From contig JAECYW010000001.1 of NCBI GenBank assembly GCA_023014335.1, forward strand, positions 496,001-560,000: a stretch of 64,000 nt of DNA, read 5' to 3'. The stretch comes from Galerina marginata (lineage: Eukaryota; Basidiomycota; Agaricomycetes; Agaricales; Galerinaceae). Positions 5,939 through 58,631 of this stretch are shown here, one piece after another. Below the pieces are notes generated by a model. It was not told the origin of the DNA, made no database searches, and saw nothing but the letters and a program-made list of their open reading frames with translations. Every line of letters begins with the position of its first letter. The first letter of the stretch is position 1. The position numbers and the translations under genes were made by a program.

Positions 5939-5987
5939 ACTTGTTTAGAGGCCATTGCTTCGCATGGCAAAAACGAGTTCTTTTTCT
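5939..5987 (-). other. 3' terminus of the giant Helentron
   Basis: Reading the minus strand toward 5939: subterminal AAAGAACTCGT, TTTTGCCATGCG…, hairpin GCCAT/ATGGC around GCGAAGCA, then CCTCTAAACAAGT. The subterminal inverted repeat pairs with the terminal ACGAGTTCTT of the 5' end. The RepHel stop codon lies about 160 bp upstream. Confidence 0.8.
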
Positions 5988-6142
5988 TTGCTGCTTCTTA
6001 TCTATAATAGTACACTTGTTACAAATATCCTTTTAACTGTTTGAATTAAACTACATTAGTTAGAAAAAAGCTAATTAGCAATTAAACTAAATTACTCTAC
6101 AAACTACCAGTATATTATCAGCTCTGTATAATTATTATCAAT

Positions 6143-9100
6143 TCATACTCCATATATAACAACCACTGCTTCTTTCTTTTTGCACTTAAATAATAAATCT
6201 CCTTCAAAATCATCTAACTGTCCTTGTTTTATACATTGAGCACCAGTAAGAATACCATCATGGTACCAGATTTCATTATTAACTATAAATCTTGATGTAA
6301 AATGATTGCTTCCACTATATATAATACCTTTCAATGATAATCTAGTTATACTCTTGTCTTGGTTTTCAATTTTAATATATTTACTTATAATCTTTTTAAC
6401 CTCCAAACTAAAACATATAAAACTTGGTGAAATAGTAAAATATCTTGTGATACAAACTTTTTTAGTACATAGTCCACAATATTTCTTTTGGTTTTGCCAG
6501 TGTTTAAAGTTTGACTGAGTAGATTTATGTGAAGAACATGTAATAAATATCAAAGATTGAGATTGAATTTGAGAACTTGCTTCATAATTACAATCACTGC
6601 ACTTTTCATAACTGATATCTTTCGGATTAGGTTTTTGGAACATTGATTGTAAAAGATCACGGATATCAGTTCCTGTATGCCCTATAGGGAATTTATCTGG
6701 TTGAGATGTTTTTAATTCATGTCTAACCAAATCTCTAACTGCAGATAATGTTTGAGATCCAGTTTGAACATTTTTATATCCCTTTACCAAAGTTTGTGTA
6801 AATTCTCCATATTGACTAAGCTCTTTGGTCCATTGTTTTTTGTTTTGAGACCATAAATTGAACAATATTGTAAATAATGAGTCATAAGAACAGCTATAAT
6901 TGACTGAATCCCATTTTAAGCCTTGAAGTTCAATATCATAAGTAATTTTGGGTTTTTTGATCTTAATTATTTTCTTAGCCTCTAATGGAACTATAGGTAT
7001 TTCAGTATCCTCTATTTTTCTCTTTAAATTGTTTACTTTAACTGGGATTGAACCTTTGGCAGGCTGAAAATGTTGTGCAACAAAAGTTTTAGCTTTTGAA
7101 ACCACAGGCTTCTTATTGATAATAGTCCATGGACTATCTTTAACAGCTGTTGTATTTTCCATTGGCTTTTCTTTAGACCATTGTAGTGCTTTATCTATAC
7201 AAGGTGGACAATAACCTGTGCCTTTGATTTGTTGATACTGTCTTATTATAATATTTCTAAGATTTCCAGTAATTGAAGTAGGAAGTTGATCAAGATATTT
7301 GAGTCTAGTAATCTCATCTAATAACTCAAGTTCTCTGAATTCTTGTCTTAGATAACCAGATATACCACATGTAATTTTATGATCATCAAAGCCTTGAAGA
7401 ATAATTGTGCCTTCTGCAGTTGAACCTCTAGATAATGCAGTGTAATAAGCCATATGACTGCGACAACTATTCAAATTTACAACATTGTATTCTCTTGTTT
7501 TTCCTTGTGAAGCATAATCAGTCATTGCAAAATTTGGAAGCACAGAAACTTGAGATCTATTAATTGAAATAGGGGATTTTAAACCTGAACAAAGAACACT
7601 CTTGCTAGAGCGAGTTAAAGGAACAACATTTTGAGGAAGACCTTTGAGTTGAATTGTCTTAGCTGGTGAATCAAGTTTGACAAATAAAACATCAAGAACC
7701 AAATGATTTTCAGCACCTTTTGAAGCTTGCCAGCCTACAACATGAGCTTCTTGACCACGTGTGATACATAATTCTGTAGCATCATTATTGCGGATCATAA
7801 CTGGCATTCCAAAACATAAAGACAATTTTCCAGGAACAGTTTCAGTCATTGAATATCTCATATTCCATAGAATATTTTGAAGTTTTGAAGGAAGAGATAC
7901 TTGTTTTTTTCTGATTGTTTTAGCTTGAGGATTTTTTCTCTTTAAAAGTCTAAGTGTTTCAGGTGGAACACTTTCACCAATAGTATCCACAGAATAAAAA
8001 TCAGTTAGAGTCTGACCAGTGTCTTTTGCAAATCTCTGACATCCCAGATCATTGATTTTATCCTTTTCAGAATTTAAACCTAGAATGATTGAGACATTGC
8101 GGAATAATGAACTAGCAATATTGGGCTGATCCTTTCTTTTTCCAGCTATTCTTGTTCTGAGAAACTGAATATCAGAAGCTGTACAGGCTGCGTAGCGCAT
8201 ATTTTCTAAAGCAGTGCGAAGTTTAGTATCTGCAGGAGATTGAAATCTTTGTCTCATGTTTTGTCGCAAAATCACAACTGTAGTTATCTGATGCCATAAA
8301 GCTTTGCCTATTGCAGTTTGCTGGCCAGGTTCTGTCATAGCAGCATTAATTGTAGTACCAACTCCTCCACTGTAAAGAGAAGCACCTTTAACAGGTGCTA
8401 ATTGAGCAAAATCTCCAGCAAAAATCATATTCATACCACCAAATGGATTATCAACAACATTTTTAAGTTTAGCGAGCTGAGCACTGATTTTATAAAGATC
8501 AAGACATGATAACATTGAAACTTCATCAAGAAAAATATATTCAACACCTTCAAGTCTAGTATAAACCTGAGCTAAATTGGTTTGTTCATTTTTTTTCATT
8601 GCCTCAGTTTGAATACCTAGAGCTGAATGATATGTAGATCCTTTGAGTAAAGCAGCTGCTGAAACAGTAGGAGCCAGAATCATGATGCGATGTTTTTCTT
8701 TTCTTAGTTCAAAAAAAGCAATTAAAGCTTTAATAACCTGAGATTTACCAGTTCCACCCATTCCACCTAGATACATTTTAAGAGGTTCAGTTTTATGAAG
8801 AGTTGCATGATTAGCCACAATGCGGAATGCACGCTCTTGTTCTGTATTCAAACTAAATTTACTAACAGTATCATCAATGAATTTCTGTTCATTCAATTTC
8901 TCAGCCTGGAAATCCTTATTAATATATGATATATCTGATACTACAACTTCATCATGAGACTCATGGTTATCAGTAGATTTATTAATACCTGATGGCAGAT
9001 CCTTCATTCTTTGAGCAATAACATCTTTTTTAGCAGCATCAACTATAGAATTCCATTCACTGCTATTGAAATTCTCAGTAGGTTTAAAAGTGCTATCAGG

Positions 9101-10686
9101 TTTTATAGTATTGTCTTTGGAGCTATCCAGCCAGCCTATATTTTGAACTACTTTTTCAATCTGAGCCATTTCTTCAGTTTTAGCTGCATCATTGATAAGA
9201 AGTTCAGACATGTCTTGTTCATTATCAAAAGATGCTAGTGGACCATCATCGGTATAGTCCAATGCTGTCTGATCTAGTTCATTAAGAGTTTGTTCACTAT
9301 CAATCCAAGATCCAAATATACTATTCTTTTGAGCTGCACCTTTTTTCAATTTAGCAGAGTAATCATCTCTGGCATCATTGCATTCATATCTTAAATTGAA
9401 ATTCTTCATCAACTGGTTTTGATGTTTAGCAAATTTGAAAGCATTAAAAGCTTCATCCCAGGTTTGATTTTCAAGCTTAAGATCTCTTCCAGTTCTCCAT
9501 GGTTTAAAAAGTGTTAACATTGTTGAACAATAATATTCTCTATCACCTTGATCACTTCTAGGAAGAATGCCACCTAAAAACACTGGAACTACTAAAGGAT
9601 CATTGGTTTTATAAACTACCTCATGTGTTCTATACAGAGGATGACCAGGTAAGAAGTTATACTTTATATTAAGACTTGTTTCAGCAGATTTATTGATAGT
9701 ACTATTTTGAATATTTAATTCATCATCTGACTGGCTGGATTTGCCACCACCAACTTGTGAAATAATATCTAGCTCATCATTTGAATCCAGTTCCTCATTT
9801 AATTCTTCTTCTTCAATATTATCAAGCTGTCCATTAAGTATATCTTGCAAGGAGTCAAATTTTTTCAAGTTCTTTTTTGAGCGCCTTGTAGTTTCTGATC
9901 TGCGAATCCATTCATATAAAGTGATATTTTTGTGTATGTTTGGGCAATAAATATAATCATCAACTTTAGAAAGACCAACATAGTCTCCAAGATTCTTATC
10001 AAGAACAACTTTTTCTGGACTTTCTTCTTTATCATTATCACCCCATGCATCTCTGACTTTGCGGACATAGAGTCTCCAGTAAAACTTTATAAATTTGTGC
10101 TGAGTATAATGATCTGGATTTCCTAATAGATATAAAGATGCCATTGGACTTCCTATTTCCATTTTAGATGTAAGTGAGTTGACCATTTTAGTCATTAAAG
10201 CTCTAGCAGTTTCTTGGCGACTACTGCTACCACCTAGTAACTCTGAATTTTTAGAGAATATTTGGCGCACTGTATCAAAAATTGAATAAGTTGTAAGACC
10301 TGGTTTAGTAACATAATCTGTAACATAAGCAACAACAGCTTTGACTGAAGTTCCAGACAAAAGACTTGTTACATCTGTATTTGCTCTAATAAGATAAGAC
10401 AGAGCTGGTGTAAATGTATTCATCCAACTTTCACCTTTTTTCAATTTTAGAGCACCTGTAAGAGGTTCAACCATAGTATTCTCAACAATATCTCTAGGAA
10501 ATCTTGCTTTACATTCACCTTTGCTATTTTTGCAGCCTTTTCTTACAGATCTACCATCTTTGGTTTCAATATCAGTTCTACAGTCATGTCTATTAGATCT
10601 TGCAAGTATATCATTGGTCTCTTCTTCAAATTTGACCCACCATTCATTTAATTCTTTGCATTTGGAACAATCTGTACAATTTTTTG
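6143..10686 (-). pseudogene. RepHel, C-terminal portion: tyrosine motif, Pif1-like helicase, USP-like domain
   Basis: About 1,515 codons of the rolling-circle transposase. Just after the N-side is AYVTDYVTKPGL, the two-tyrosine motif of Helitron Rep. The SF1B (Pif1/RecD2-like) helicase follows: GGMGGTGKSQ (Walker A), IFLDEVSML (Walker B), FAGDFAQLAPVKG, LRQNMRQ, and YASQGKT…YTALSRG. A C-terminal region of about 290 residues starts WDSVNYSCSYDSLFTILFN and later has YSGSNHFTSRFIV…WYHDG, resembling the Cys and His boxes of ubiquitin-specific proteases, with CxxC pairs between. The frame is open from 10686 to the TGA at 6145-6143. It is separated from its HUH half by the nested Helentron at 10687-11943, so it is broken in this copy. 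The start is internal; there is no native ATG here. Confidence 0.88.
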
Positions 10687-10687
10687 A
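10646..10687. repeat. 42-bp direct repeat flanking a nested Helentron, copy 1
   Basis: The RepHel sequence ATTTAATTCTTTGCATTTGG… (42 bp, encoding the KSKNCTDCSKCKELN region) occurs here and again at 11944-11985, on either side of the inserted Helentron. Helentrons normally make no such duplication. Removing the insertion plus one copy restores the frame. Confidence 0.85.
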
Positions 10688-11943
10688 CTTGTTCAGAGGC
10701 CATTGCTGCGCATGGCAAAAACAAGTTCTTACTTTCAAGGTGAGTCCGACTATAAATACAGGTTAAATAAGTAAATAATGCATAGTCCGCTCAAATCTGA
10801 ACCGATTGGGATGATCTTATACTCAAAAAAAGCAGAAAAATGAGGCGGATCTAACAAGCCTAATTGCGCCTGGTCACGTGACCAGGAAGGCCCTGATTTT
10901 TACGAATTTTTTGATACCAAGATCATAAAAATTGGCCCAGTAATGGCTGAGATACAGAAACCATGCAGGGTCACAGTATGAGTGGGAGAATTTCCAACCA
11001 TTGCGTTAGAAACCATTTCTGCCTGCTATGCAGGCCGGAAAACAAGTTCTTTTACTACGTAAGAACTTGTAACAAGATTAATTAATAGACTACAATAAGA
11101 AACTTGTAACAAGATTAATTCTTACGTCCCTTAGTTTTTATCGGATTGCCTTGAAACAAAGTGTGTAATTATCAGAAAAATCAGGGCTAAAAGATGGTGT
11201 CACATGCGTATTGTCACATCTTTATGTGACTTACCAAATGCGGAATATTGTTGAAAGCACAGTAAATAAGCTATATTGAGAGATTTTAAAGGCATTAAAA
11301 TAAAATAAAAATACTGATAATGTTTTTTTTACCTAAGAGATGGTCTGTGCACACATATCACATGACATATCCCTGAGAATATTTTGGTCCAAGTTGGTGC
11401 ATTACCAAATCCAAGGCAATTGCACAAAGTCCTGCTGTGAGTTTGATTATGTAAGCTTCTAGAACAATATTTCCATGTTATTTGGTCATGTTTTGCAATG
11501 TTTGGTGTGCCTTTTATGGGTTATCCAGTCAGTTTGACACCAATTTTCGGATTTTCACCAAGTTGAGCTGACTGTTTGCTTGATTTGGACACCATGACAT
11601 CATTGCAAAACATATGTAAATATTTGTACATTATTCTAGATTGGTCTGGGCAACACATTTTAGCCTATCTAGCTCACTGAAATCCATTTCAAGTGGAAAT
11701 TTACACAAATTTGCGCTTTTTGGGTCGTGTGAGCAGGTCACATGACCTAATCGACCCTGGATACACATGCCACATGAAAGCCCTGATTTTTACGAATTTT
11801 TTGATACCAAGATCATAAAAATTGGCCCAGTAATGGCTGAGATACAGAAACCATGCAGGGTCACAGTATGAGTGGGAGAATTTCCAACCATTGCGTTAGA
11901 AACCATTTCTGCCTGCTATGCAGGCCGGAAAACAAGTTCTTTT
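10687..11943 (-). mobile_element. Compound non-autonomous Helentron, nested in RepHel, 5' terminus truncated
   Basis: Same compound family as 3810-5082. The 3' end is complete (minus strand ending …CTGAACAAGT at 10687). The internal second 5' end is complete at 11041-11074. The outer 5' end stops at AAAGAACTTG… and lacks the last ~23 bases including the TACGTAG loop. It is bordered by the 42-bp direct repeat at 10646-10687 and 11944-11985. It splits the Rep domain between the HUH motif and the tyrosine motif. Confidence 0.85.
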
Positions 11944-13899
11944 ATTTAATTCTTTGCATTTGGAACAATCTGTACAATTTTTTGATTTACATAACTCAGG
12001 TGGAGGTTTTGGCATTGTTTTTGTTGGATCTGAATAACCAGTCTGTTCTTGCTTAGATTTAAAAGATGCAAGAATATCAGCTAATGGCTTTTCATTTAAC
12101 AATTCACCTTGATGAACACTTTCCAGATATTCTACCATTTGTTTTTGAAAGTCAGAAGTACTATCCATGATGCGATCTCTGATCTCCTGAGGTGAAAGTG
12201 AATTTTTAATCCATAATAGAAGATGTAGATGCAAAGTTAGACGACCTTGCTGTTCAACTGTTCCATAGTAAGCATTTGTTTTACCATACAAGCCTGGAGA
12301 GTCATTGCCAACACCCAATACATGTTTAATAAAGGTTTCACACATAAAATGAAAGAATCTTGCAGCTGCTACAGGGTTTTGAGCAACAAGGCGGTAAGCT
12401 TCATCTGGTAGACAAATCTCAGGTTTGAACTCAATATCCTTATCAGCAAAATAAAGACAGATTGGATGTTTACTATCTGCAGGAGAAAGTGTAATAAACC
12501 AAGAAGGTGCACCTATATAGGAAATCAAAGACCATATTTCATTGCGCATAGACTTTTTACCTGCTAAAGAACCTTCAACATGACCTCCAATTGTATCCAA
12601 GTCTTGTATGACTTTATAGCATAGTTTTTCCTCTTCAGTTTCAGGTTTTACACGCTCACCAAGAGAAAGGCGCTTGCTAATATTAGATAACACTGAATGA
12701 TTAAGGTTTAATAGGCGATTAGCCATTTCAGAAAAATAAGATCTCTGTACTACTAATCTTCCTCGACTTGTGCTTTGAGAAATCTGTTCATGATTAAATG
12801 CAATCAAAGGAAAATTGGGATCAGTTTGAAACCTTTTATCATGATACATTAACAGATGTCTTTTCTGGACCAAAGGTGAATGGATTTTGTTCATTATTGA
12901 TTGACCTATACCACCATGACCATATGGAAAAAGCCATGGAAGCATAGAAGGAAACAACTGAGGATTTTTAAATATTGAGCAAGGTTTTTCAGAATGACCA
13001 GCAAATAAAATTTTTCCATTGCTCATAAGATGTTCCAAAGCTTTAGCCTTTATAGTATCAATAGAAAGCTCTGAAAACTCTTGTCCTGTAAGACCTTGAA
13101 CAGTAAATGAGCAAGGACCTGATTCTACACCATCTTCTTCTTCATTATCATGTACACTAGTGGCTTCTGGATCTTTATTTATAATAGACTCTCTATAATC
13201 AATAACAACAGGACAGTCACTTTCAGGATATTGCATTAAGTTGTCTTTTGAGATACCAACATCAGAATAATCAGCATGATTTAATTTAAGCCAGTTTAAA
13301 GCCTTAGCTACATGGTTGCGACGGACAAGTAAAGGAGTGCGTTTAATATCATCTTTGGTGGGTCTGCAAGGTCCAGTAAATATAAATGCAAGAACTTCAT
13401 CAAGCTCTTTTACTGGAGGTGGTAAAACATCATATATTTTTGGGACTGGATTTTGAAAGGTAATAGCATTGGCTCTCATTTTATATCTGCCTGATGCCAC
13501 TTTGACTATGCATCTATTGTGTCTTACACGTGCAATTAAAAGCTTTTCAACATAAGTCAGATTTTTAAGCACATCTGGTACTTCGCCAATCCAAAAACCT
13601 GAAGCTAAAGCAAATGAGGGTATTTTGTTTTTCTTCAAACTAGCACAACAGGTTTTACATGCATGAGTACATTTTGAATCAATAATTGGACCAGTAATAT
13701 CAGAAATAGGATCTTCAGGAGTTTTTCTTTCTTTGCGAGTAATACCTGGGTTTATTAATACCTTTAGTCTATCTTTTATTTCACTTAAGGGTATTAGATT
13801 TCTAAATGGTGTTAATTTTCCACAAACTGCACAGCCTGCTTCTACAAATTGAGAAGGACTTGTATCTTGTATAAAGCCTGAAATTATTTTATAAAGTAG
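11944..13899 (-). pseudogene. RepHel, N-terminal portion: DUF6570-like region and HUH Rep domain
   Basis: Open frame from 13899 to the nested Helentron. N-side: CAVCGKLTPF and CKTCCASLKKN cysteine pairs, then SGFWIGEVPDVLKNLTYVEKLL and MRANAITFQNP…IYDVLPPP, the pattern of the DUF6570 domain that precedes fungal Helitron Rep. The Helitron-like N domain follows with RSYFSEMANRLL, GAPSWFITLSPAD and GRLTLHLHLLLWIK, the HxH (HUH) metal-binding motif of the rolling-circle nuclease. The frame continues in phase upstream across the insertion at 13900-15166 (…PPSK-S-LLYKII…). Single catalytic motifs look intact, but the gene is in three pieces. Confidence 0.88.
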
Positions 13900-15166
13900 A
13901 CTTGGTCAGAGGCCATTGCTGCGCATGGCAAAAACAAGTTCTTACTTTCTAGGTGAGTCCGACTATAAATGAAGGTTAAATAAGTAAATATTACATAGTC
14001 CGCTCAAATCTGAAGCTATTAGGATGTTCTTATACTCAAAAAAAGCAGAAAAATGAGGCGGATCTAACAAGCCTAAAACGGCCTGGTCACGTGACCAGGA
14101 AAGCCCTGATTTTTACGATTTTTTTGATACCAAGATCATAAAAATTGGCCCAGTAATGGCTGAGATACAGAAACCATGCAGGGTCACTATAGCAGTGGGA
14201 GAATTTCCAACCATTGCGTTAGGAATGTTTTCTGCCTGCTATGCAGGCCGGAAAACAAGTTCTTTTACTACGTAAGAACTTGTAACAAGATTAATTAATT
14301 GACTACAATAAGAACTTGTAATAAGATTAGTTCATACGTCACTTAGTTTTTATCGGATTTCCTTGAAATAAAGTGTGTAATTATCAGAAAAATCAGGGCT
14401 AAAAGATGGTGTCACATGCGTATTGTCACATCTTTATGTGACTTACCAAATGCGGAATATTGTTGAAAACACAGTAAATAAGCTATATTGAGAGATTTTA
14501 AAGACATTAAAATAAAATAAAAATACTGATAATGTTTTTTTTATCTAAGAGATGGTCTGTGCACACATATCACATGACATATCCCTGAGAATATTTTGGT
14601 CTAACTTGGTGCATCAACTGATTCCAAGGCAATTGCACAAAGTCCTGCTGTGAGTTTGATTATGTAAGCTTCTAGAACATTATTTTCATGTTATTTGGTC
14701 ATGTTTTGCAATGTTTGGTGTGCCGTTATCCAGTCAGTTTAACACCAATTTTCGGATTTTCACCAAGTTGAGCTGACTGTTTGCCTGATTTGGACACCAT
14801 GACATCATTGCAAAACATATGTAAATATTTGTACATTATTCTAGATTGGTCTGGGTAACATATTTTAGTATATCTAGCTCACTGAAATCTGTTTTAAGTG
14901 TAAATTCACACAAATTTGCGCTTTTTGGGTCGTGTGAACAGGTCACATGACCTAATCAACCCTGGATACACATGCCACATGAAAGCCCTGATTTTTACGA
15001 TTTTTTTGATACCAAGATCATAAAAATTGGCCCAGTAATGGCTGAGATACAGAAACCATGCAGGGTCACTATAGCAGTGGGAGAATTTCCAACCATTGCG
15101 TTAGGAATGTTTTCTGCCTGCTATGCAGGCCGGAAAACAAGTTCTTTTACTACGTAAGAACTTGTA
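13900..15166 (-). mobile_element. Compound non-autonomous Helentron nested in RepHel N-terminus
   Basis: Complete 1267-bp compound copy: 3' end at 13900, internal 5' end at about 14266-14283, outer 5' end at 15166. Taking it out joins …CCATCTAAAAGT (minus, ending 15167) to CTACTTTATAAA (from 13899) in the RepHel frame without change, another clean T^N insertion. Confidence 0.85.
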
Positions 15167-15253
15167 ACTTTTAGATGGTGGCTGAGGAGGAAAAGTTTTA
15201 TTTCTTTCTTCAGACTCAGATATATCTTTTTGTTTCTTTAGGTTATTTTGAAC
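15167..15253 (-). pseudogene. RepHel, most N-terminal visible codons
   Basis: Twenty-nine codons (…NNLKKQKDISESEERNK…) continue the RepHel frame upstream of the nested Helentron. The frame is closed by TGA at 15256-15254 and holds no ATG, so the real start is missing or lies in an upstream exon. A possible intron with donor GTGAGT (about 15257) and acceptor CCTCCTCAG (about 15182) crosses the segment, but joining it to the upstream JmjC-like frame gives a stop. The segment overlaps the stop codon of the JmjC-like gene at 15240-15238. Confidence 0.6.
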
Positions 15254-17302
15254 TCACGTAAAGGAGCTTTCAAAGCAGTTAGGCGTATCACATCATACCT
15301 AAGTGGCTCCAAGAAGGTGAAAACTTCATGTTCGGATTCCAAAGCCTCATTGACGGGGTCTTCAAGAAAAGTGCCCTCAAAGCAGAGCAGGATTTGACGG
15401 TTAAGGGTTGCTGCTGTACTTCCTGGGGCGCCTTTAAATTTAGCCTTGTCAGCTTTCTTCCTGTAAAGAAGAAGAGCAGAAGCCTGCTGAGCGATGTAAG
15501 GAACCCAAAGAGAAGTACGAGGATTCTTGACGGTCCGTTTGGTCTTTTTATCAATGATATCAACTGACTTAAAAAGCCAGTCAATAAGAGCGTAAGCCTG
15601 TCCTCTGGCGTGTTGGTACCGCAAGCGATCCTTTGGATGAACTGCGTTGAAGTCGAAAGCTTCGATAGCTGCGAGACGTTCTGCAGAGAGTTGCTTGACG
15701 TTGTTGACCGTGATATCCTGGTTGTACATGTAGGTTTTGAAGTCGAGGACGTTGATCAATATGATGAGATTGCAAAATGACATCAAGTCGACGACGGATG
15801 AAAAGTTTTCTAAATCGAAAACATGGGCATGTGCGATTTCTGTAATTAAGATAATATTAGGCAGAGAAAAGAATAAAAGCAAAAAGACCAACCATATTTG
15901 TTATACCTCTGCTTTACGAGACCTTCATAATATAAGGAGGCGAGGCGGCAAAGCAGGATGCAAGTGGGAGTATGGTTGGTGTTGGAAATGAAGTTATCGA
16001 GCATGAAAGCGTGAATGAGACCAATCATTGTATCGTGGATAGTTGAGGAAGCTATATAGTGACCACCCGAGCAGATAGTGTGAAATGGGGTATAAACCCA
16101 GTGAGGGCAGTCAGGACCCATTACCCTAGAAATCTGGGGTCAATAAACAAGTTATAGCTAAATAGAGAAAAACTTACAGCCGAGTTTTGTGGGTTAGGAG
16201 TATACCTTCCAAGATCCAATGATCCAAATTGGGAACCTCCAAAGAAAACTGAAGAAACATGTTAATGTTTGCCAGTTCCAACATAGCGGCAGCTCGATCC
16301 ACTTCTGGGTCAGGGTTTTTCTTCAAAAGTTCTTTCCGGGTGGCCTTCATCCAAAACTTAGCGCTGTCTTGGTTCCTAACCTCAATGACAGTACCCTGGC
16401 CATCACTATCAATGTGGCCGAGATGTAAGGCGCCGCTAAGCCCGATGAGATACCATGACATATCCGAGTAGGGATAGTGCTCGGTTTGACGGTGGCAGAA
16501 GAGGTCAGCACCAGTAGCATTCCAAGCTATAAGCTCAGAAGAGTACCCAGTGGTCGGAAGAGGACAAGTGGAGTTAGGAATGTCCAAGACGTTCAAGATT
16601 TTGCCTTTATCACCCTGGTCGATGCAATCCAGGATCTGCTGAAGGTTTCCGGTGTGATGACAATCGTTAGGGTTCTTGCTAATGACTGAGTGATCTAATA
16701 AATAGTTAGTACTTGTTCAACCAGAGAGATTGTTAAGCTTACCGTGGATACAAAGAGCGGAGGTGAGAGAGCAGATATTGCTGAGAGAGCGCTGGGTAAA
16801 TTCGATGCTGGACATTTCGCAATCAGTCAGAACAAGCTGTTTGTGGCGAACTAGATCCTGGACAGCTTCAGGCTCTAATTCCTTGTACGCCTTTTCATCC
16901 ATGATAAGGAAATTACTATAAACTCCTTTCTGTGTATGACGCGGCTTTCCATTGACGTAACAAGACTCCACGGCTTTGAGAAGCCCATAAAAGTTCTGAG
17001 CGTCAGATTTTTTCTGAAGTGATAATTCCATAGTCAGATATCTTCGGTTATATTACCAGAAATGAGACTTACGTGAAAGGTTGGATGGACAACAGTGGGC
17101 CGGCCAAAAGCATCGTAAAGAACCACGTCATTGACATCGGCAGCCTTCACTTCATCATACATCTTGACTCTCTATCTCAGAGGATTTAGTAAAAGTAGCT
17201 TAAATGTAAATATATTCTTACCTCGGGTGGATTTGTAACCACATCCAATTTAGCGTCTGGAAAGGACATTTCAATGTCCTGCTGAGGAACGTAGGTTTTC
17301 TG

Positions 17303-17775
17303 TGTTAGACTTTCACAATAAAGTGTGTTACTAGTGATTAACACTAATAAGATCACAATAAGCTTAGTTTGCACAATCTGATGATTTGAGTCAAAAAGTA
17401 GTAAAACGCTTGTATAAGCCCGAGTTTCAATCGTATGTCTTCGTTTCCGAGACATAAGAGGGATTACATGTTGGTACGTATGCTAGCTACCGTACGAGGC
17501 GAGGCGTGACGATAGGTGTCCACAATATCGCGTTCGAAATAATTGTGACACAGAACTCCGAATTACACTACAAAAAGAATATCGACGGAAAGGTCTCGAT
17601 GAGGAGATTACGAAACAGTAAAGCTTTTTACGTAATATCGCTTCTATCTTACGCTATAAGCGAATTACTATGCAAATCGCGCTATTTTACAGTGAAACTA
17701 GTTGAAACCAATATGAAACCAAAAGTAAAACACTATCTACAGAGTTCAGAAGTGTTTTATCAACTAATTCTAACA
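17303..17775 (-). repeat. Copia 3' LTR
   Basis: 473 bp, TG…CA type ends (TGTTAGAC…TTCTAACA). Open frames read inside it are fortuitous. It appears identical to 22216-22688. Confidence 0.93.
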
Positions 17776-17928
17776 CAACCCCCTGATATAACACTTCTGT
17801 AACTTTAAGAATTATATAACACAAGAATAGTTCATTCATCAAGCCAAAGTCCATAAATCAAACAGAGTCCATATGAGATGTTGTATCATCCCATCAACAA
17901 CCCCCTGATTCAACATCTCTCCCTCTTC

Positions 17929-42860: not shown

Positions 42861-42891
42861 GAACGCGGGGGGGAGTGATAAGTGCTCCAAT

Positions 42892-43465: not shown

Positions 43466-43508
43466 TCCAGAATACTACAATGAGCTTTAATTTCTTTCAC
43501 TCACTCCA

Positions 43509-46500: not shown

Positions 46501-49500
46501 GTTAGACTCTTTCCCAACCAAAGAGCTTGACTTATATTCTTGGGTCTCACACCTCAGTCTGCAGTTCAATCCTTGAATTCTTCCTTTAGTCTTGATGGCA
46601 CCCTTCAAGTCTGGCTCTTATACACAGAGTGGTCAAAATTTGTAATCTGCAAAAATTACATCCAGTTGTACCCTGGATGAATTGATTAAAATAGTATGAT
46701 AGATTGTTTAATGATGACAAAGCACACAATTGGGGTTATGAAGACCACTATTGGTCAGCAATATTGATACTTGGGCAGTAAGTGAGGGTATTACAGAAAT
46801 TGATAATCTAGCACCTTTGCTCTTTGTTGCTCAGCTGGACACTTAGAAAAATACACAGATTGATGTGTGTTATCTATATCATAGGTTATGGACATTATAA
46901 TTAGCTTACAGCTGTATGCAAAATGATACTATGATTTACCTGAACATTGGTCAGACCCCTCAGTCGGTCAGTCACACTTTTTGGCAGGAAAATATGACAC
47001 GGTGACTGATGAGCTGTGCAAATGGAATGATCTGATTGGTTTGGCCAACTGAGGGGTCCGACCAATGTTTGGGTCAAGCATAGTAGCCACTCTAGACCAA
47101 TACATATACAGTGCAAAGTCTGCAAATTTTTATAGCCGAAGTCTTCTGGTGGGCTAAAAAATTGATATACATACAATCTCTACTGCTGCAAATATGCTAA
47201 CCCAGTGATAGGCCTATTTGACATAAGTTGGATTATTTCACATTTATTTATATGTATGTCAAACTCAGATAGTCTAATGTTTTGATCCAATTGATGACTG
47301 TCTACCGAATTATCATTGCTATCTGTATTCAAGGATCATAACACTGAAACAGCAGTCAGGCCCCAAGCCACCTCACCGATATTGTCTATTTTTGACCTGT
47401 TGGTCAGAGTAAGACATATTTTGCTGTAAATGCTTTGACTTAAATTGAGCCCATAGAAGGCACATGATTAACTAATAGATCTGATGAATGCTGATTTGGT
47501 CAGGTGTTCCAAAAATAGATTAAATTCATTTGCTTTAATTGGGGGAGCTTGCTCTTTTTGTACAGATGATCTCATTCCTTAGCCACACATGACCTACAAA
47601 AATCAAAATGACCCCCCTTGTGGGATGATGTAGCAAGCCTCTCAAGTGTCTGCCTGTCACCAGGGCCTAGATGAACAAGAGCAGACAGCAAAGCCGTTTG
47701 CGATTAATAATGTTCTTATATTTAATAGAATTATGTCTATATAACAGTATAAGCTATTTTTAGAACTGATATTATTTGGCTAATATCTCAGTATAAAAAA
47801 GTAAATGATCACATGATCTATATTTAGACCATTCTAAATATAGATCACAATTTAAAACACTCTTTTCTTTTTAGGAGATTTTCCCATCTGCCAAATGAGA
47901 CTGGAAAAACCTGATAATAATTTTGATGGTGCTTAAGTATTTTTAGAATTGACTTTGTTCTGGTTATTTATAAGTGAATCATCATATTTGGCTACTTTTA
48001 AAGATAGTTATTCATAATATCCTAAAAATAGACTGATCACATGATTCATTTAAAATGAAGAGAGATCCAATTTTAATGGACGACTATTTATAGATTTAAA
48101 TGGCTCATCTATAAATAGAAACAGTACAGTTGTCAAGGTTTAGGTATTAATCAATTAATAGAATTAAAGCTCCAAATACTACCTAAAAAAGAAATGTCAA
48201 AATTTCAATCTAAAAATAGAAATAGTCTTAAAAACCAATTTTGCAGATCATTGTAAAATAGGCTCACTTTCTAAAAAAGGAATTTCAGGGTCAAAATTTA
48301 AAAATAGAACTTGTTCTAAATATAGATATATCAGGATTTAGCTCTAAAAATAGAAAAGTTAAATCTATTTTCTGGATCATTTGCTGTAGGATAAAAATAG
48401 TTCATAAATTTGAGTTTAATCTATAAATAGAACGAGTTCTAAAAAGGCATTTTCAGGTCAGGGTCTATAAATAGAAAATGTAGGGCCATTTTTTTTGATC
48501 TGGAATCTGTCAGTATCATGTGACTTGGCATCTTAGTTGCCAAGAAATACACAAAAATACATGTTTAAACATGCCTCTTTATATAATTTGACTATAACTT
48601 GCCCAGTTTTTATCCAATTGCCATGATTTAAATATCAGAAAATTCAGAAAATTCAGATCTACAACATGACATTAAATTGAATGGATATTACTTTTTAAAT
48701 TGCTTGGTTTTTTATCCTTTCTATGACTTACAACGACTTCTGGTGACTTGGTTCATGGTCTGATGAGTTGAATTTTATTTTTGAGTAATTTGCAGTAACA
48801 TGACTGAAGCTGGAGCAAATTCATCATATTGTTTCTATGACTTGTGGATGATTTGCAGTGACATTGAATTTCATTTGCAAGTAACTTGCAGTGACTTGGA
48901 TGAAGCTAAAGAAAAATCATTGTATCCTTTCTATAATTCGCAAATGACTTACAGTGACTCAACTAATGCTGTAGAATTGTGATTAATGCTCTGGTGACTG
49001 GTTTTAAGCTTTAAATTCTCTTTCATAGTCCATTAGACTGTTGTGAATTCATTATATTTAGCGGACATATATATATTGATATTTCTGTTTTCTGGGCTGT
49101 GTCTGCTGAATAGCACTCTCATGGATCTCAGCTCTGCTTTCTGGCTGGCCTGAAATTGCAAAATATATTTTATGGCTGGAAGATTTGATGACATTGGATT
49201 GCTTCAATCTTTTGGCAATAGATAGTACTCTACATTGCATCTCAAGATCTTTTTATAGATTCCTGCTATCTATCCTGGATGGCCTGCTAGCCCAGATTTA
49301 ATATTTGGGAAAAAAGACCCCTGGCACCCCTCATTTTATAATAATTTACAAATAGTTGTTATCTTTCAAACAAATTGTTTAAACTTTGCATTTTTATTTC
49401 AAATTACAAGTTTTATATTTCAACTTGTTTATAAATTTTGCTTTTGTTTTTGATATTTTTCAGAAATTTTCAACTAATACGCCTAGGGTTACAACAATTA

Positions 49501-50094
49501 TTAACAATTTTATTTTTTTTTGGCGGAGTTTTTATTTTAGTTTTTTGTCGTGCAGGGCCTCCATTAGGTAGGTTGTTTACATATAATGTACCTACCTTCC
49601 AGGTACCTGGTCGGGGGCCACTGAAGTGAGAGGATCGAGCTGAAAAGTACACTGATCTCTCCACAATCACTCCTCATGAACACAACCGCAATGATGGCTC
49701 CTTTGAAGAAAAACTCTTGATTGGACCTATTAGGTTCATTAACCATCGCTGTGTTTCTTATAATGTTGAGGTGAGTTTCAATTCTTGTTTACAGGTATTT
49801 AATATTAATAAATGCGGATAGTTTATTGCTATTCGAAACACATATGCTTTTACCATTATGGCAACAAAGAATATCAAAGCCAAGGAAGAAATCTTGCTTT
49901 GCTATGGGGTTGACTACTTCAAGGAGAATGGAGCTGAATGCTTATGTGAAGATTGCAGGGAAATACCAGATGAGGAGGAGGAGGCAGAAGCATCTAAGAA
50001 GGATGAAGGTCAGATTAACATTGAGGAGAGAGACCAAGCCAAAAAGAACAAAAGAGCAAAACAAAAAGAGAATCGCAAGCTGGGACCAAATTAA
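43509..50094 (+). pseudogene. SET-domain protein gene, split by a hairpin element
   Basis: ATG 43509 (MADSAVASTSHPAITW), stop TAA 50092-50094. Exon 1 to about 43910, intron with GTGGGT…CTCACAG to 43961, exon 2 to the inserted element at 44127, continuing at 49636; a further intron 49770-49820 (GTGAGT…GGATAG). About 110 residues into exon 2 and after the insertion come the SET-domain motifs: KGFAIYANKDIIQGEYI, GPIRFINHRCVSYNVE (the RFINHxC…N core) and EILLCYGVDYF…CLCEDC (YG and post-SET-like cysteines). The tail is acidic then Lys-rich. SET proteins transfer methyl groups from S-adenosylmethionine to lysines, often histone; the target here is unknown. Removing the element and one AGAGGAT copy restores …GLMPED-RAEKY… in frame. 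Confidence 0.75.
44127..49628. mobile_element. Long-hairpin DNA transposon B (5,502 bp), no transposase seen
   Basis: Inverted ends CACTTCAGTGGCCCCCGACC and complement, bordered by AGAGGAT (44120-44126, 49629-49635; 7 bp clear, 8 bp in element A). The inverted arms match along about 44127-45790 with about 48060-49628. It shares end sequence, TCTATTTATAGA-type motifs and blocks such as CTGATATTTAAATCATGGCA with element A, so both belong to one family. The centre (about 45800-48050) has no convincing protein; it includes diverged sequence also found in element A. Confidence 0.85.
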
Positions 50095-50521: not shown

Positions 50522-52907
50522 TTACGCCTTTGGTGTTGCCAAAACCACAGCCCAACAGATGTTGGTTCCAATCGTAAGCTCATCCGGGGACTTCTGCAAG
50601 TTATAACCCAAAGTGGTGTATCCAACAAGAGTCAAAGATCCAGTTGGAATATCTCCTGGAAAGACAGGAAGAGTTTCAGCAACCTTGCGTAGACCCTTTG
50701 GAAGATCAATCTGAAGAGATCGCCCATCCAAGATAGGAACTGGTTATAAACAAGTTAATATCTTTAAAAACAAGATATCAATGAGAAACTCACTGGTCTC
50801 ATCACAGGTATATCCCAGCTTCCACTTTGAATTTTTGAATTGAGCCTGCTGTGCATTGGCAGGACTCAACTTCTTGGTGCCCATAGGACGAGAAGGACCG
50901 GCGCGGCCATATGAATCTATTAGCAACAATATTGAGATGAATAAAAGATTAAAGTCAAATAAACATACTTTGAGCTTTATTATTGGAGCTTCCGGGGCGG
51001 GATGAAAAAGACCAGCGATTGTTGGACATCAGGGTTTTGATACCAGGTACCTTGTAAACCAAGCAGAGAGTGGCAACCAATCTTTCATATTCCATAGTCT
51101 GAATTACGCCTGTCAGAATCTTATATGATGAACCATTAATATCCTTGGCATGACGAGTGTAGTCTTCATCAACACATATGAGGCTGAGACAGAGAGCCGG
51201 AGTTTTCTGGTTTCGTAAAGTGATCAAAGGATAGATGGATCCAGTGTCTGGTTTTTTGGCGATAAGGTCACAAGGTTCGATTCTTGACAAGTTGACGGTG
51301 CTCGTGCCTGTGTCCGAAACAAAAGTGAACAAATCCAGCAAGTACCTATCCGAATAAAGTTAAAACAGAATATCAAAATAGAATAGAATGATTTACTTCT
51401 TGCTAGTCTTTGTCAAATTTGGCAGCAGTTCTGAGACATACATCATAGGCTCCGGTGCTTCACCTGCAGGAAGATATCGATTGTTGGTGTATCCACTGAA
51501 ATATTGTTAGTCAATTAGCTATAGGCAGTAAATAAGTAGATACCTAGGCAATTTGGGAAGATCCTTGTAAGTTTTGGCAAGGAAGACATCAACCAAGTCT
51601 TTATCATAGATCTGGCATTTCCGTAACTTGGGACGACTATATATATATAGTATCAGGCAATAAAATTGATTAATCAACAGAAATGCATACCTTTCAAGAG
51701 GATCTTTAGTGATCAAATCCTCCAGATAAACACCAGTATCTTTCAAATCATCTTTTCTCTTAGCAAAAGACTTTTCTTCTTTCGATTTAGCCTCCTTTGC
51801 CTTTTTTCTATAAGCCACAAAAAGTCAACAAAGTAAATATATTATAGAAACAAAAATAATGAACATACATGGCTGAGTTGACAATTTTCTGACGTTGAGG
51901 ATTGTTACTAAAAAAATGGATTAAATAATATTCTGAAGAAAATACACCATACACACCTAGTCTTAGTCTTTCCTTTGGACTTACTCAAAGGAAGCTCATC
52001 ATCCTCTGAGGTGTTATCCTCCTCCCTAAGAAAAGAAAAACAGAAAAGGGAAAATTAGCTTAAAGTCAAAAAGAAAAAAAAAAAAAAAAACATACGCTTC
52101 ATCATCTATGAAATTAGCATCAGAATCTTGTTCATCATCTTCCTCCTCTTCATCTTCTGCCTCATCTTCATCTTCTGCCTCATCTTCATCTTCCTCTGCA
52201 ACTTCAGCATCATCACTATCAAACACCTCTTCTTCACTAGCGCTATCAGATTCCGATTCAGTCTCTTCCTTAATAGCCTTGGTAGTCTTTCTCTTTGTTT
52301 GAATCAAAACAATAGGCGATTTGAGTTTCAAATTTTTGGCAGAAGACTTCATTGTAGGAGTGTTGGGAGGCTTTGACTGTGAAGTATGACGAGGTTTTTT
52401 TGGTGACTTCTGTTCAGGACTAAAATAGCCTTTAATATAAAGTTCATAAAAATGAAAACCAAAATACCTTGGAGTAAATGCAGCAGTGTCGATGTTTTTC
52501 TTCTTAGACTTTGAGCTGATTAAAAAAGTAATTAATAAAAGAGGCAAAATATCTGAACTAACTACTCACAGGCTTCCTGCAGTGGCTTGAGGAGGCCCTA
52601 CTCTCTGAGACCTTCTCGGAGTAACCCTAGAAAACCATATTAGTGTCATAATATCTTAACATGGATAAAGAAGCAAAAAAGCACGGAGGTGGGGGCTGAT
52701 CCGATCTGCAATGAAAGTTTAGTTTCAAAAAAGTAAAATACAACAAGCAGAACATACAAAGAGGCAGCATCAGAGGTTTCATTTTCACTCGCACTATAAT
52801 AATAGCAATAATTTTCAGCATCTATCAAAAAAGAACAGATAATTCAATATCTACCTGTGATTTTCCTCTGAAGAGGAGTCTTGTTTGACTTTTCTTTTAG
52901 GTGGCAT
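50522..52907 (-). CDS. Unrecognised multi-exon gene with basic/acidic N-terminus
   Basis: Minus strand, ATG 52907-52905 (MPPKRKVKQDSSSEENH), stop TAA 50524-50522. At least ten exons with short introns: N-terminal part rich in Lys/Ser (SKSKKKN, SPEQKSPKKPRHTSQS), an acidic tract (EDEDEAEDEDEAEDEEEEDDE, coded by a TCTTCATCTTCTGCC repeat), then KKAKEAKSKEEKSF. The C-terminal half (51340-50522) looks folded: YLLDLFTFVSDTGTSTVNLSR, LITLRNQKTPALCLSLICVDED, GSLTLVGYTTLGYN and NICWAVVLATP. I do not recognise the family. The charged N-terminus suggests a nuclear or DNA-associated protein; this is inference. No inactivating break was found, but all introns were judged by eye. Confidence 0.6.
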
Positions 52908-53837: not shown

Positions 53838-54753
53838 ATGACCACTGAAGACGCTGAAGAAGTGGTATTGCGTGTTCAAGGTGTATTAAGCCAGAAGTCA
53901 CTTCCACCTATATCGCAGCCATTTAATATGTAAGTCAGAAAAGTTGTCAAAAACACTAAAGAGCCAGCCAATGTTAAATATAATATACACACAGTGAACC
54001 TAAACAACGACATTTTATGCGGCAATCAGTAACACTCACTGGACTGGGCAGCACACTTTTCTATCAGGCTATACAAAATGCTCAAGAAATTCACCAGATA
54101 TTCTCACGCACCTTTCCACAAGGCGCTCTCGAGGATTGGAATTCTGCTTCTTTTGAAGGCTATCCAGCTATTGACATGAACAACCGCTTTTTCACACTTC
54201 GCAAACATGCAATCACGGATGAAATATTACCTTTCTCAAATGAAGTCGATCCACATGGAATCCTTGCTGCTGCTATGGATATTGATGAACAGTTTGTTCA
54301 TACTACAGAAAATGAAGTTGAGTACTATGAACTCCTTGAGGATCGTGAACAAGAAACCAAGTAAGTTTCTGTTCTGATTAGACCTTTTAAGATCTTTAAT
54401 AATAATCATGCAGGTATCAACAAGTCAATCCTATAAAGTTCCGGTGTGGAGATATTGTTGAAGCCCAACTTTCCTTTATCTGTATCCAAATGAAGAATGC
54501 AAAATATAGGATGTTGACGGTTCTTCGGGCAATTACCATTTTGGACACCTCATCTTTAAGGGTGCGTATTGAGTTATTAAGCTTGTGATGATTAGACTCT
54601 GATGTAACTTAACTTTAGGAAGCTGCCATAAAACGCAATCGAACTAAAAACCAGACAGTGAGGCAGGTTTCTTTAAAAAGAAAGGTTGGATATGCCACAG
54701 ATGAAGTTGTAGAAGCACGCGATAGACTGAGCTGTATGAAACTGAAAGATTAG
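53838..54753 (+). CDS. Unrecognised four-exon gene
   Basis: Plus strand, ATG 53838 (MTTEDAEEVVLRVQG), stop TAG 54751-54753. Exons about 53838-53929, 53996-54360, 54415-54560 and 54620-54753; the introns are GTAAGTCAG…CACACAG, GTAAGTT…CATGCAG and GTGCGT…ACTTTAG. About 240 residues. Visible segments: DPHGILAAAMDIDEQFVHTT, KFRCGDIVEAQLSFICIQMK and RMLTVLRAITILDTSSL. It resembles hypothetical proteins that I believe are common in Agaricomycetes, but no function is known to me. Frame is intact. Confidence 0.6.
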
Positions 54754-55191: not shown

Positions 55192-57213
55192 ATGGCCAAA
55201 AGTCAGACTAAAAAGCAAGCCACTCATGCTGGTGGGTTACATTTAAATTCAAAGTTGTTATAAAGCTAATTTTTCAAATAATAGAAACTCCTTACCGTCG
55301 TCGCTCTGCTCGAATTCACAAGGCTTCTACAGCTACTAATCAAGTGGATATGGAAAACAACTCTGGTGTTCCGATTATAGGTATGTCTAGAATTTATGAC
55401 TATGTTAATAATATTGACTCAATACTTTTCATACAGAGGCCAACAACTCTGGTGTTCCGATTATAGGTATGTCTAGAGTTTATGACTATGTTAATAATAT
55501 TGACTCAATACTTTTCATACAGAGGCCAATAATACTGTAATAGAAGATACAAATAGTAAGTAATCAAACTTATATATAACTTTATAACTTACTGATTAAA
55601 ATTAACCATAGTGTCTGAAGAACTTGAGTATCCTCTGGAAGAGGATGCTAGAGAGCTCCATCTAGAACGCTTCATTTCCAATAATCTTCCACTAGGAAAG
55701 TTCAATTGCGATGCTCTCAAGTTGTTGTGGAAAGGCACTGTGCAATCTATTGTCAACCAATCCATGAAAAATGAAGAATCTCGTCGTCATGCCATTTGCG
55801 TGGTTCGCCAAGCTGCAGCTTGTCTTGAAATCAACTTGGGCGCAACTATACCAATTCCTGTTGGTGAAGACAGGGCAACTAGGAGACCTAACATCTTCGA
55901 GGTCAACAATAGTATCCCTCATTTATCAGACGAACTCAAACACGCATCAAAAACTCTCTGGGACAGATGGGGAAACTCCAAAAATCTTGTTGATTTGATT
56001 GCTTTAGCAGAAGAAGAAGTTCTAGGACCAGATGTCCAGGCTTTTATTCTGATTCTTGCCAAGTCTGTTGGAATCCTAAGCAGTAATATCAGTAAGCCTG
56101 TGTTATTATTTATCTGGCTATTGATATCTGATTATATGAACAGTCAACAAAGTAACATATGCTGTTCATCACAGCAAAATGTTCTTCCTTCCAGCTGCCA
56201 TTCAGAACAAAATACTCGACAATCTCTCTGCATATGATCGCCAATCTTTTGCTGAAACCAGCAAAAGTCATCTTTTTTGTTTAAACCGGTATAACTGCAA
56301 CTTGATTGGATCCATGCTAGAGGATTTTGGATTCACTCTGGATATTTTCATGTCAGCTCTGGCAGACTGTCAGGCCATCATCACTGGATCCTTTGCTCTT
56401 CAGCCCCTCCTTCCAAAAGACCAGCGCTTCAACTCCAATAATCTCGATATCGTCATGTCTACCCACGCAGTCCGACTCTTCCAAACCAAAATCCTCCATG
56501 GCTACACTCTCTATATCCCTGACACCAGATTCCATTCTTATAATCCTGTCATCTGTGACCGCATCATCTTTTCCCACAAGGATGCAAGACACACAATCCG
56601 GATTCTCATTATCAAAAATGGACATTCACCTTTGGAATCAATTTTCTACGAGCCAACCACCGCGATGATGAATGCGATCACTCCAAAAGGTCTATTCTCT
56701 GCCTACCCTGCTCTTCTTCACTTCCGCATCTCTCTGAACAATCCATGGATGGCCTTTGACCAAAATCGCAACAATCCCTACCTTGGAAGACATGAAGCTG
56801 AAGAAATCTCAACCAACATGCAAAGGAAATATGCCAATAGAGGCTTCATCACTACTTGCGATCTTCATAATATTGAAATGGGTGGGAATACCATGGCACT
56901 TGAGCATCGATGCCGCATTGATCCAGTCTGTCCACTGACTCCTCGAGTTATTGGAGATCGCGGATGTATTCTTTGGCCTTTCCTCAAATGCCAAATTGTT
57001 CCAGCAGCAGGTGAAATGGGTTATGTTATGCCTGGCATCAATTTCAACCACATACGACCACGGCTCGATACTATATACTGGACAGTTGGAGCTGGAGTAT
57101 GTGGAGCACCACAAGCAGGGAGGCCATCTGGATTTGTAAGTTATCAGCGTAATTTTTATAACTAAATTTGAGTAAACTTGCTATTGATAGATATTTGCTG
57201 CAGCTGACGATTA
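55192..57213 (+). CDS. F-box-like / nucleotidyltransferase-like protein gene
   Basis: ATG 55192 (MAKSQTKKQATHA). Short first exons (ETPYRRRSARIHK; a 30-nt exon ANNSGVPIIG present twice), then a large exon from 55611 (helical region with VSEELEYPLEEDARELHLE) to about 56090, an intron, and a final large exon from about 56135. The latter begins with LPAAIQNKILDNLSAYDRQSFAETS, like an F-box, followed by CQAIITGSFALQPLLP…NNLDIVMST, like the GS…D-x-D start of a nucleotidyltransferase fold seen in fungal F-box relatives. The last intron (GTAAGT 57135 to TTGATAG 57190) would give the end …GFIFAAADD at TAA 57211-57213; without it the frame ends at 57165. No break was seen. Function unknown. Confidence 0.6.
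55356..55530 (+). repeat. 86-bp tandem duplication containing a 30-nt exon and its intron
   Basis: The block CTCTGGTGTTCCGATTATAG + GTATGTCTAG…TTTTCATACAG repeats with a period of 86 bp (start of units about 55361 and 55447), with a single base difference in the intron (AGAATTTATG/AGAGTTTATG). Each copy carries a 30-nt exon, so the reading frame is kept. Confidence 0.85.
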
Positions 57214-57775: not shown

Positions 57776-57799
57776 AATCAAAAAAAAATTTTGGGTTGG

Positions 57800-57948: not shown

Positions 57949-58009
57949 TTTTGGTGCTAACCCTAAGAGGACCGACGTGTCGGTCCTCTTAGGGTTAGCA
58001 CAGCCACAA
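57949..58009. repeat. Micro-palindrome (one centre substitution)
   Basis: Core 57957-57998 with GACGTGTCG at the centre, a C-to-T change in the CpG; followed by GCACAGCCACAACAC. The sequence between palindromes (TTGGCTTGTTATCAATATTC…) is also repeated, so units of about 150 bp are partly tandem here. Confidence 0.85.
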
Positions 58010-58400
58010 CACAAAAAAAATTTATTTGGCTTGTTATCAATATTCAACCTCAGACTTGTATTTACAAGGCATTTTCAATGCTTAAAGTTTTTGATGTGTT
58101 CATTTTTAGCATGTCAATTCTCCTGAGTTTGATTTCAAACCAACGGTAAACAGAAGTATTACATTGAAGGATATAGAAAGTACTAGGAGAAGTTGAACAA
58201 GACTTACAACGAGTATTATTTATTACTGGAATGCATCTAGAAGTATATAAATAGATATACAACTGACATGAACCATGTTTGGTGACTGTTTAGTCATATA
58301 AGCTATACATAAACCTTAGCAACCAGAGCAAGAGCCTGTAACGGACTGCAAAGTAAAAGAAGTGATATTTAATCACGTTACTGACAAAACCTAACCTTAG
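58010..58400. other. AT-rich stretch without a gene
   Basis: Between the last micro-palindrome and the conserved 5' end of the giant element. Short frames only; nothing recognised. Confidence 0.5.
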
Positions 58401-58631
58401 TTTAGGTGTCCAGGAACAAAAGCTAAAAATAGACCATAGCAACGGACATCAGACAACCATTCCCATGGTCAATAATGATTTTGACACTATTAGAAAAGTT
58501 TGTAGACTTTTAATTCAGGGTCGCTCACAAAAAATGAAGCAGTGGGAGAATTTCCAACCATCGCGTTAGGAATCAAATCCTTCTGCTATCGAGTGTAGAA
58601 AACGAGTTCTTTTACTACGTAAGAACTCGTA
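58400..58631 (-). other. 5' terminus of the giant Helentron
   Basis: Minus strand from 58631: TACGAGTTCTTACGTAG, hairpin partner AAAGAACTCG, then a weak hairpin ACACTCGATAGCAGAAGG, then TCCTAACGCGATGG, GAAATTCTCCCACTGC and CCCTGAATTAAAAGTC. The same order occurs at 38752 onward (plus). The flanking base is T58632 (minus), last base of the LINE ORF1 codon CAT. Confidence 0.82.

Follow-up and report, generated by a model that had tools for sequence, protein, structure and literature searches.

A ~33-kb gene-carrying transposon family, very probably of the Helitron2 type, in the mushroom Galerina marginata

Background

The Starships of fungi are large mobile units with gene cargo. Here we describe an element that is likewise a large, gene-carrying mobile unit, but that differs from Starships in being smaller and in encoding RepHel in place of a tyrosine recombinase. 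It occupies positions 5939 to 58631 of a 64,000-nucleotide stretch of DNA from the mushroom Galerina marginata (GenBank assembly GCA_023014335.1, contig JAECYW010000001.1, here C1, positions 496001 to 560000), which we call the window. No tyrosine recombinase of the kind known as the Starship captain was found in 18 scanned frames of the window, some of which lie outside the element, or in seven hand-joined gene models.

Among rolling-circle transposons, the FoHeli elements of Fusarium oxysporum (Helitron2/Helentron) share with the Galerina element a RepHel with HUH and Pif1 domains, an asymmetric terminal inverted repeat, a 5' hairpin and insertion without target duplication, and they too occur in many copies accompanied by small non-autonomous relatives. 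In the portions of the published account covered here, FoHeli1 measures about 6 kb and FoHeli2 about 5 kb, and most fungal RepHels fall in the Helitron2 group, none of them with an endonuclease (PMC5148889). The Galerina unit, in contrast to these elements of 5-6 kb, appears to be about 33 kb long and to carry about six further genes. HELPO1 of Pleurotus ostreatus is also a mushroom Helitron with extra genes; the covered part of its description gives one to four of these, without copies outside Helitrons, and sizes of up to 13.7 kb in the corresponding portion of the table (PMC4289320). The cap genes of HELPO1 lie downstream of RepHel, whereas the Galerina cargo block lies 5' of it. According to the sections drawn on here of a 2019 review, Helitrons of fungi reach 14 kb, the largest in maize is 39 kb long and contains gene fragments, and whole-gene capture is exceptionally rare (PMC6431247). 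The gene-capturing Helitrons of maize resemble the Galerina element in being rolling-circle elements, up to 39 kb long, that hold several pieces of host genes; their cargo consists of fragments, however, whereas that of the Galerina element consists of intron-bearing genes that show few amino-acid changes between subfamilies and stand beside RepHel.

A search by title and abstract, with subscription papers mostly outside its coverage, found no report of such giant gene-carrying Helitrons. What would be new is the size, unusual for a Helitron2-type transposon, together with the conserved cargo; the rolling-circle class of mechanism is already known.

Results and discussion

A comparison of copies within the 69.3-Mb assembly (43 contigs) makes it very probable that the window element belongs to a multicopy family of giant Helitron2-type transposons. 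The unit, of about 33 kb, would begin at a 5' hairpin end, continue with about six intron-bearing genes in one block and carry the RepHel gene at its 3' side. In the assembly the ends are exact, no target site was duplicated on insertion, near-identical copies are numerous, and the cargo exons show few amino-acid changes between subfamilies.

Insertion site and termini

The element interrupts a long interspersed nuclear element (LINE) within a segmental duplication, in which C1:451677-486940 (copy A) is collinear with C1:496344-565533 (copy B, which holds the window) and each copy has private insertions. In copy A, about 40 kb away, the LINE is unbroken and reads GCAAGGTGC followed directly by ATGGTCTCGG across C1:461744/461745. 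In the window copy 52,693 bp separate the GCAAGGTGC and ATGGTCTCGG bases, and the junctions (C1:501938/501939 and C1:554631/554632) are base to base, with no target duplication. A one-base ambiguity (A) remains at the junction of this empty site and of the second one described below. Adjoining the site, mismatches to copy A number 0 in 857 bp on the left and 2 in 393 bp on the right. The original prediction, made from the letters of the window, had taken positions 5939 to 58631 as a single insertion and had suggested a search for the empty LINE site; the site exists, and the coordinates are exact.

Ectopic recombination between two Helentrons, or a segmental duplication, could in principle have put a host gene region between ends that flank it by chance, and the position of the locus within a segmental duplication, like the differing divergence of its two arms, is compatible with such an origin. 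However, the LINE rejoins base to base at the ends, and the same block is found between the same ends elsewhere, with a second precise empty site. We give this explanation very little credence and favor insertion of the element as one unit.

Both termini were read directly. Folded as DNA, the 5' hairpin has an energy of -8.8 kcal/mol (z-score -3.84). The terminal inverted repeat is asymmetric: ACGAGTTCTT stands one base in from the 5' terminus and AAGAACTCGT 34 bases inside the 3' terminus. This asymmetry is a feature of Helitron2; the lack of a target-site duplication and a RepHel of the HUH and Pif1 type are features of Helitron and Helitron2 elements.

Copies elsewhere in the genome

Six further copies were fetched, and all six share both end bases with the window copy, starting with ACTTGTTTAGAGGCCATTGC and finishing with AAGAACTCGTA in flanks that differ; both copies fetched from a second subfamily, on C34 and C23, have the same ends. 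The prediction had proposed that copies bounded by these ends be sought. Both ends were read in 9/9 copies examined, the window copy included. Helentrons insert in a TT dinucleotide; here a host T (sense strand) precedes the 5' end in every one of the nine, and the base on the other side varies. The eight other copies span 32.6-39.4 kb. One of them, C12b, is inserted in SET-gene sequence that belongs to another giant copy; the window has this sequence without interruption at position 49912, which constitutes the second exact empty site. By coordinates, the outer giant copy extends over about 111 kb (C12:3481180-3592503), of which C12b, within the SET gene, takes up 38.8 kb.

An ordinary small Helentron might instead have hit the LINE and grown to 52.7 kb by nesting, the gene block never having moved along with it. 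Seven nested insertions do account for 22.9 kb, and the region has many small Helentrons whose ends are related. Against this, the eight other copies hold cargo and RepHel between identical ends while their flanks differ, and copy C12a and the window element are collinear end to end over the 32,889 bp of C12a, the exceptions being the nested inserts, a 1.8-kb RepHel gap in the window copy and one variable stretch, outside of which aligned blocks are 90-99.5% identical. Growth by nesting is most improbable on this evidence. The empty site and the eight two-ended copies instead bear out what had been predicted, namely that a rolling-circle unit of tens of kb, with RepHel and intron-bearing cargo, was inserted whole.

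The outer 30 bases of the 3' end (5939-5968) were used as a probe of the whole genome with up to two mismatches. There were 81 matches (27 exact, 1 with a single mismatch and 53 with two), and a reversed control gave 0. The 53 two-mismatch matches were read as ends of related small elements and left out, which gives 28 giant-type 3' ends. With 22 of 34 RepHel matches entered in the comparison, a RepHel C-terminus lies 206-211 bp inside 20 of these 28 ends. The 34 matches were listed after scoring 30 of 634 candidates and include partial ones and the window's own; among those listed, 23 are 98-100% identical, and five of these 23 (on C12, C39, C23 and two on C6) have open RepHel frames of 2,626-2,661 amino acids. 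Two cargo stretches recur next to several RepHels with order and orientation kept. The 28 giant-type 3' ends fall on 13 contigs, and each of the seven contigs with at least two of them has them within one island of at most about 251 kb; these islands could mark centromeres or pericentromeres.

In the mechanism that we envisage, RepHel would nick at the 5' hairpin end, the helicase would unwind the whole unit, and the strand, once freed at the 3' end, would be joined to the target beside a host T. In this way the window copy would have landed in the LINE on C1, a Copia, two hairpin elements, a 1.17-kb insert and three small Helentrons enlarging the total to 52.7 kb.

RepHel and the class of the element

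The RepHel of C12a (2,629 amino acids) matches Pfam DUF6570, Helitron_like_N and PIF1, and has the motif HLHLLLW at residue 1034. The motif YVTDYVTK, seen by eye, is presumably the tyrosine pair of RepHel; the pattern YxxYxxK, which has a spacing unlike that of YVTDYVTK, gave no match. Pfam gave no match to an OTU or other cysteine protease, a Helentron domain, in the C12a RepHel, where a Cys/His pattern at the C-terminus was seen by eye alone. In the standard unit RepHel ends 207 bp from the 3' terminus. The prediction that the element carries its own RepHel is right as to presence, but the gene is broken, with two nested Helentrons inside it and about 450 N-terminal residues absent. Because its own RepHel is broken, the window copy would now be mobile only in trans, dependent on intact copies elsewhere. 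Another RepHel, at C6:1929800-1934000, holds a Helentron of about 350 bp at a position matching that of the window's nested one at 10690; the two may go back to a single old insertion, or the position may be a hot spot.

Several observations weigh against the interpretation of the window element as one copy of a giant Helitron2-type family. All of the evidence comes from a single assembly, with copies compared by sequence. Helitron2 elements have hairpins at both ends; here the 3' stem is present and its stability is no better than that of shuffled sequences (z-score -0.64, 47 of 200 shuffles as good). For eight of the 28 giant-type 3' ends, none of the 22 matches entered supplies a RepHel C-terminus. 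The arms of the locus diverge unequally from the empty copy, the left arm having 1 mismatch over 4,336 bp and the right arm 44 over 9,327 bp, summed over ten hand-picked collinear blocks with gaps ignored (the remaining alignments are repeat-to-repeat matches). Clearly different divergence of the LINE halves is what the original prediction had regarded as telling against it, and the arms are indeed unequal; because copy A runs unbroken through the site, however, gene conversion of the left arm seems preferable to two different LINEs. Finally, the 2,629-residue C12a frame has no Pfam match to an apurinic/apyrimidinic (AP) endonuclease at expect values (E) of up to 1. It is because of this that the element appears to fit Helitron2 better than a strict Helentron: of the label Helentron-type, under which it was first described, the rolling-circle RepHel stands and the strict class does not.

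Nested insertions and size of the unit

The seven nested inserts (Table 1) total 22,874 bp and leave a remainder of 29,819 bp, to which about 1.8 kb of RepHel region absent from the window copy may be added. From these comparisons the standard unit is estimated at about 33 kb, and the window copy is probably such a unit swollen to 52.7 kb by about 23 kb of nested inserts. The predicted size of 52.7 kb is exact as the span in the window but does not describe the standard unit, and the 31 kb or so proposed for the unit at insertion comes close to 29.8 kb plus 1.8 kb and to the 32.9-33.3 kb of three other copies. The predicted list of inserts, consisting of a Copia, two hairpins and Helentrons of 1.3, 1.3 and 2.6 kb, was correct except that the 1.17-kb insert had been missed.

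The Copia is absent from C42a and C42b. By coordinates, the interval from 30.9 to 52.1 kb measures 6,157 bp in C42a versus 21,185 bp in the window, and C42a seems to be without the four inserts located there. Because C42a has neither the Copia nor, judged by length, those four, the inserts it does not have probably arrived after it parted from the window copy, which may have been before or after the landing in the LINE.

The two hairpin elements are related, 5.5-5.7 kb long, with long inverted arms and no transposase noticed, and have near relatives at C1:388278-393917 and C1:404499-410138. The variable stretch reaches 60% guanine plus cytosine (GC), the rest of the element mostly 30-43%. Near-perfect palindromes CTAACCCTAAGAGGACCGACG/CGTCGGTCCTCTTAGGGTTAG, whose TTAGGG units we take to be telomere-like, are repeated in the element at 25095-25146, 38303-38466 and 57720-58023; those near the 5' end of the second subfamily are different. 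Outside the element, a LINE-like insert that has poly-A and a duplication of 17 bp lies just to its right (59042-60637) and is not found in the segmental copy, and a head-to-tail array of an 888-bp repeat, more than 99.9% identical, occupies C1:488014-492641. The array is related to small Helentron sequence and could be a product of rolling-circle read-through. The 64-kb window contains no Rfam match at the gathering threshold and no transfer RNA.

Cargo genes

Gene models were joined by hand and corrected by eye, a simple gene finder having fused genes B and C and missed others. About six intron-bearing cargo genes lie on the 5' side of RepHel; the hand models make six besides RepHel a fair count, in agreement with the minimum of six genes predicted. 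The two parts of gene A are contiguous in C12a, and also across the Copia site in C42a, and would be one gene split by the Copia; its 5' part has no Pfam match at E up to 0.5. Gene B has no Pfam match above the cut-off (one scan gave DUF3399 at E 0.07, far below it) and no usable PDB sequence match, and its relatives, at 52-58%, are on C21 and C40, one of those on C40 lying within the element island. A proposal that gene B is a TET/JBP-like oxygenase, based on an HxD...H pattern seen by eye, was without support from any search and was rejected.

Gene C encodes a SET-domain methyltransferase. Its joined frames match Pfam SET at 4.5e-10, and the best PDB match of the C12a model is SUV420H1/KMT5B at E 4e-6. 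The SET and gene F proteins both find their best matches in Galerina marginata CBS 339.88, in keeping with a Galerina host; for SET the identity is 70% at full length, and 86-90% over 77-81% of the protein. Contig C13, where the 3'-end search gave no giant ends, has a SET gene that is 30-39% identical and appears by eye to share the intron position after NAE/NVE; capture of the cargo SET gene at the DNA level from an old host relative is plausible. Gene D, an acidic protein, has no Pfam match above the cut-off. Gene F is 97% identical to a protein of Galerina marginata CBS 339.88 and has distant relatives at 26-32% on several contigs. Its F-box is below the Pfam cut-off, with 5 of 7 relatives matching at E up to 1 (best 0.0057); it gave no usable PDB sequence match, and structure prediction from seven sequences had a mean pLDDT of only 41.5. 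A third, more distant arrangement, B-F-SET as opposed to B-SET-D-E-F, occurs at C39:675875-686178, C14:80193-90417 and C14:137389-147613.

Table 1. Coordinates of the element, its parts and its other copies. Positions without a contig name are those of the window; the sense strand of the element is the minus strand.
Feature	Position	Strand	Length	Remarks
Whole element	5939..58631	-	52,693 bp	5' end 58631, 3' end 5939; empty site and ends common to 8 other copies
Left flank (LINE adjoining site)	5301..5938		638 bp	100% to C1:461107-461744
Right flank (LINE)	58632..59041		410 bp	99.5% to C1:461745-462154
3' end	5939..5982	-		Sense strand: subterminal repeat AAGAACTCGT, imperfect hairpin GCCATGCGAAGCAATGGC, terminus CTCTAAACAAGT
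5' end	58602..58631	-		Perfect 10-bp stem ACGAGTTCTT/AAGAACTCGT, 9-nt loop
5' terminal region common to both subfamilies	58365..58631	-	~268 bp	92% identity; DNA just inside aligns in pieces only
RepHel, C-terminal part	6143..10690	-		Pfam PIF1 4.4e-24; Y2-like motif and cysteine-protease-like C-terminal region by eye; collinear with the C12a frame
RepHel, middle part	11941..13903	-		Pfam DUF6570 2.6e-43, Helitron_like_N 4.3e-35; HUH motif HLHLLLW
RepHel remnant	15167..15250	-	84 bp	Beyond it 1,796 bp of C12a (6748-8543) absent from window
Gene A, 3' part	16177..17302	-		Frames
Gene A, 5' part	22689..24904	-		Same DNA recurs in other copies
Gene B, 5' part	29368..30893	+		Frames; copies elsewhere in genome
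Gene B, 3' part	36564..38184	+		HxD...H by eye; gene split by hairpin element 1
Gene C (SET), 5' part	43491..44127	+		Frames
Gene C (SET), 3' part	49629..50091	+		Frames; gene split by hairpin element 2
Gene D (acidic protein)	50525..52450	-		Frames
Gene E	53984..54585	+		Frames; selection test over 53984-54361
Gene F (F-box-like protein)	55281..57162	+		Exon positions from genome-relative comparison
Variable GC-rich stretch	25219..29230			Aligns between copies in pieces only, 77-90% to C12a
Nested small Helentron in RepHel	10691..11940			Flanked by 48-bp repeat of RepHel sequence
Nested small Helentron in RepHel	13904..15166			Alignment with C12a
Nested Copia retrotransposon	17303..22688	-		Two long terminal repeats identical over 473 bp; 5-bp duplication TTCTG
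Nested hairpin element 1	30894..36563			Terminal inverted repeat CACTTCAGTGGC; 8-bp duplication GGCCAAGT
Nested Helentron, 2.6 kb	38753..41387	+		Same kind of ends, reversed
Nested 1.17-kb insert	41719..42887			8-bp duplication CAATAAAT
Nested hairpin element 2	44128..49628			8-bp duplication AGAGGATC
Copy C12a	C12:3447086-3479974		32,889 bp	Both ends as window
Copy C12b	C12:3542936-3581721		38,786 bp	Both ends as window
Copy C6a	C6:1851243-1884572		33,330 bp	Both ends as window
Copy C6b	C6:1792275-1825606		33,332 bp	Both ends as window
Copy C42a	C42:1770063-1807571		37,509 bp	Both ends as window
Copy C42b	C42:1711290-1750690		39,401 bp	Both ends as window
C34 copy (second subfamily)	C34:2450533-2485487		34,955 bp	Same ends
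C23 copy (second subfamily)	C23:2282300-2314916		32,617 bp	Same ends

Selection and module exchange

The cargo might consist of functionless passengers, host genes captured by chance and drifting. The sections of the review covered here describe the capture of gene fragments by Helitrons as known (PMC6431247), and genes A, B and C are interrupted in the window copy. The ratio of nonsynonymous to synonymous substitution rates (dN/dS) argues against drift: for one copy pair per gene, the window copy (E, F) or C12a (SET) against the C34 copy, it is 0.18 for gene E, 0.23 and 0.25 for gene F, and 0.28, 0.12 and 0.10 for SET exons 1-3, a range of 0.10-0.28 over six exons of three genes. The E and F frames of the second subfamily contain no stops. 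Mismatches between subfamilies at the three codon positions number 5, 5 and 30 in gene E, and 11, 13 and 37 in the main exon of gene D (52068-52415), which has no stop in the other copy. We therefore consider passenger cargo unlikely; in these comparisons the cargo genes show signs of purifying selection.

The two subfamilies are not equally divergent along their length. In the second, the RepHel protein is 98-99% identical and the 3' end has 97.4% DNA identity, versus 74-89% DNA identity and a synonymous divergence (dS) of 0.2-1.4 in the cargo. The lineages seem to have exchanged a module of RepHel plus 3' end and a module of cargo. With the cargo located 5' of RepHel, a transposition round that started at a neighboring copy's 5' end would swap these modules; ordinary recombination is the other route that may have been taken.

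It seems about an even call whether the family is a rolling-circle counterpart of the Starships, that is, a long-lived lineage of Helitron2 elements of about 33 kb in which a selected set of accessory genes, among them those for a KMT5-like SET methyltransferase and an F-box-like protein, is retained to the advantage of the lineage itself. Its members would swap cargo modules as one shared RepHel and 3' end sweep through the lineage, perhaps by rounds that start at another copy's 5' end.

Conclusions

A fungal rolling-circle element of about 33 kb appears to move intron-bearing genes as a unit and is present in many near-identical copies, exceeding the fungal Helitron sizes given in the covered portions of the papers cited above. 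This suggests that RepHel is able to move tens of kb, and it leads one to ask why a histone-methyltransferase-like gene should be among the cargo of such an element. The family may offer a natural system for how Helitrons gain and swap genes.

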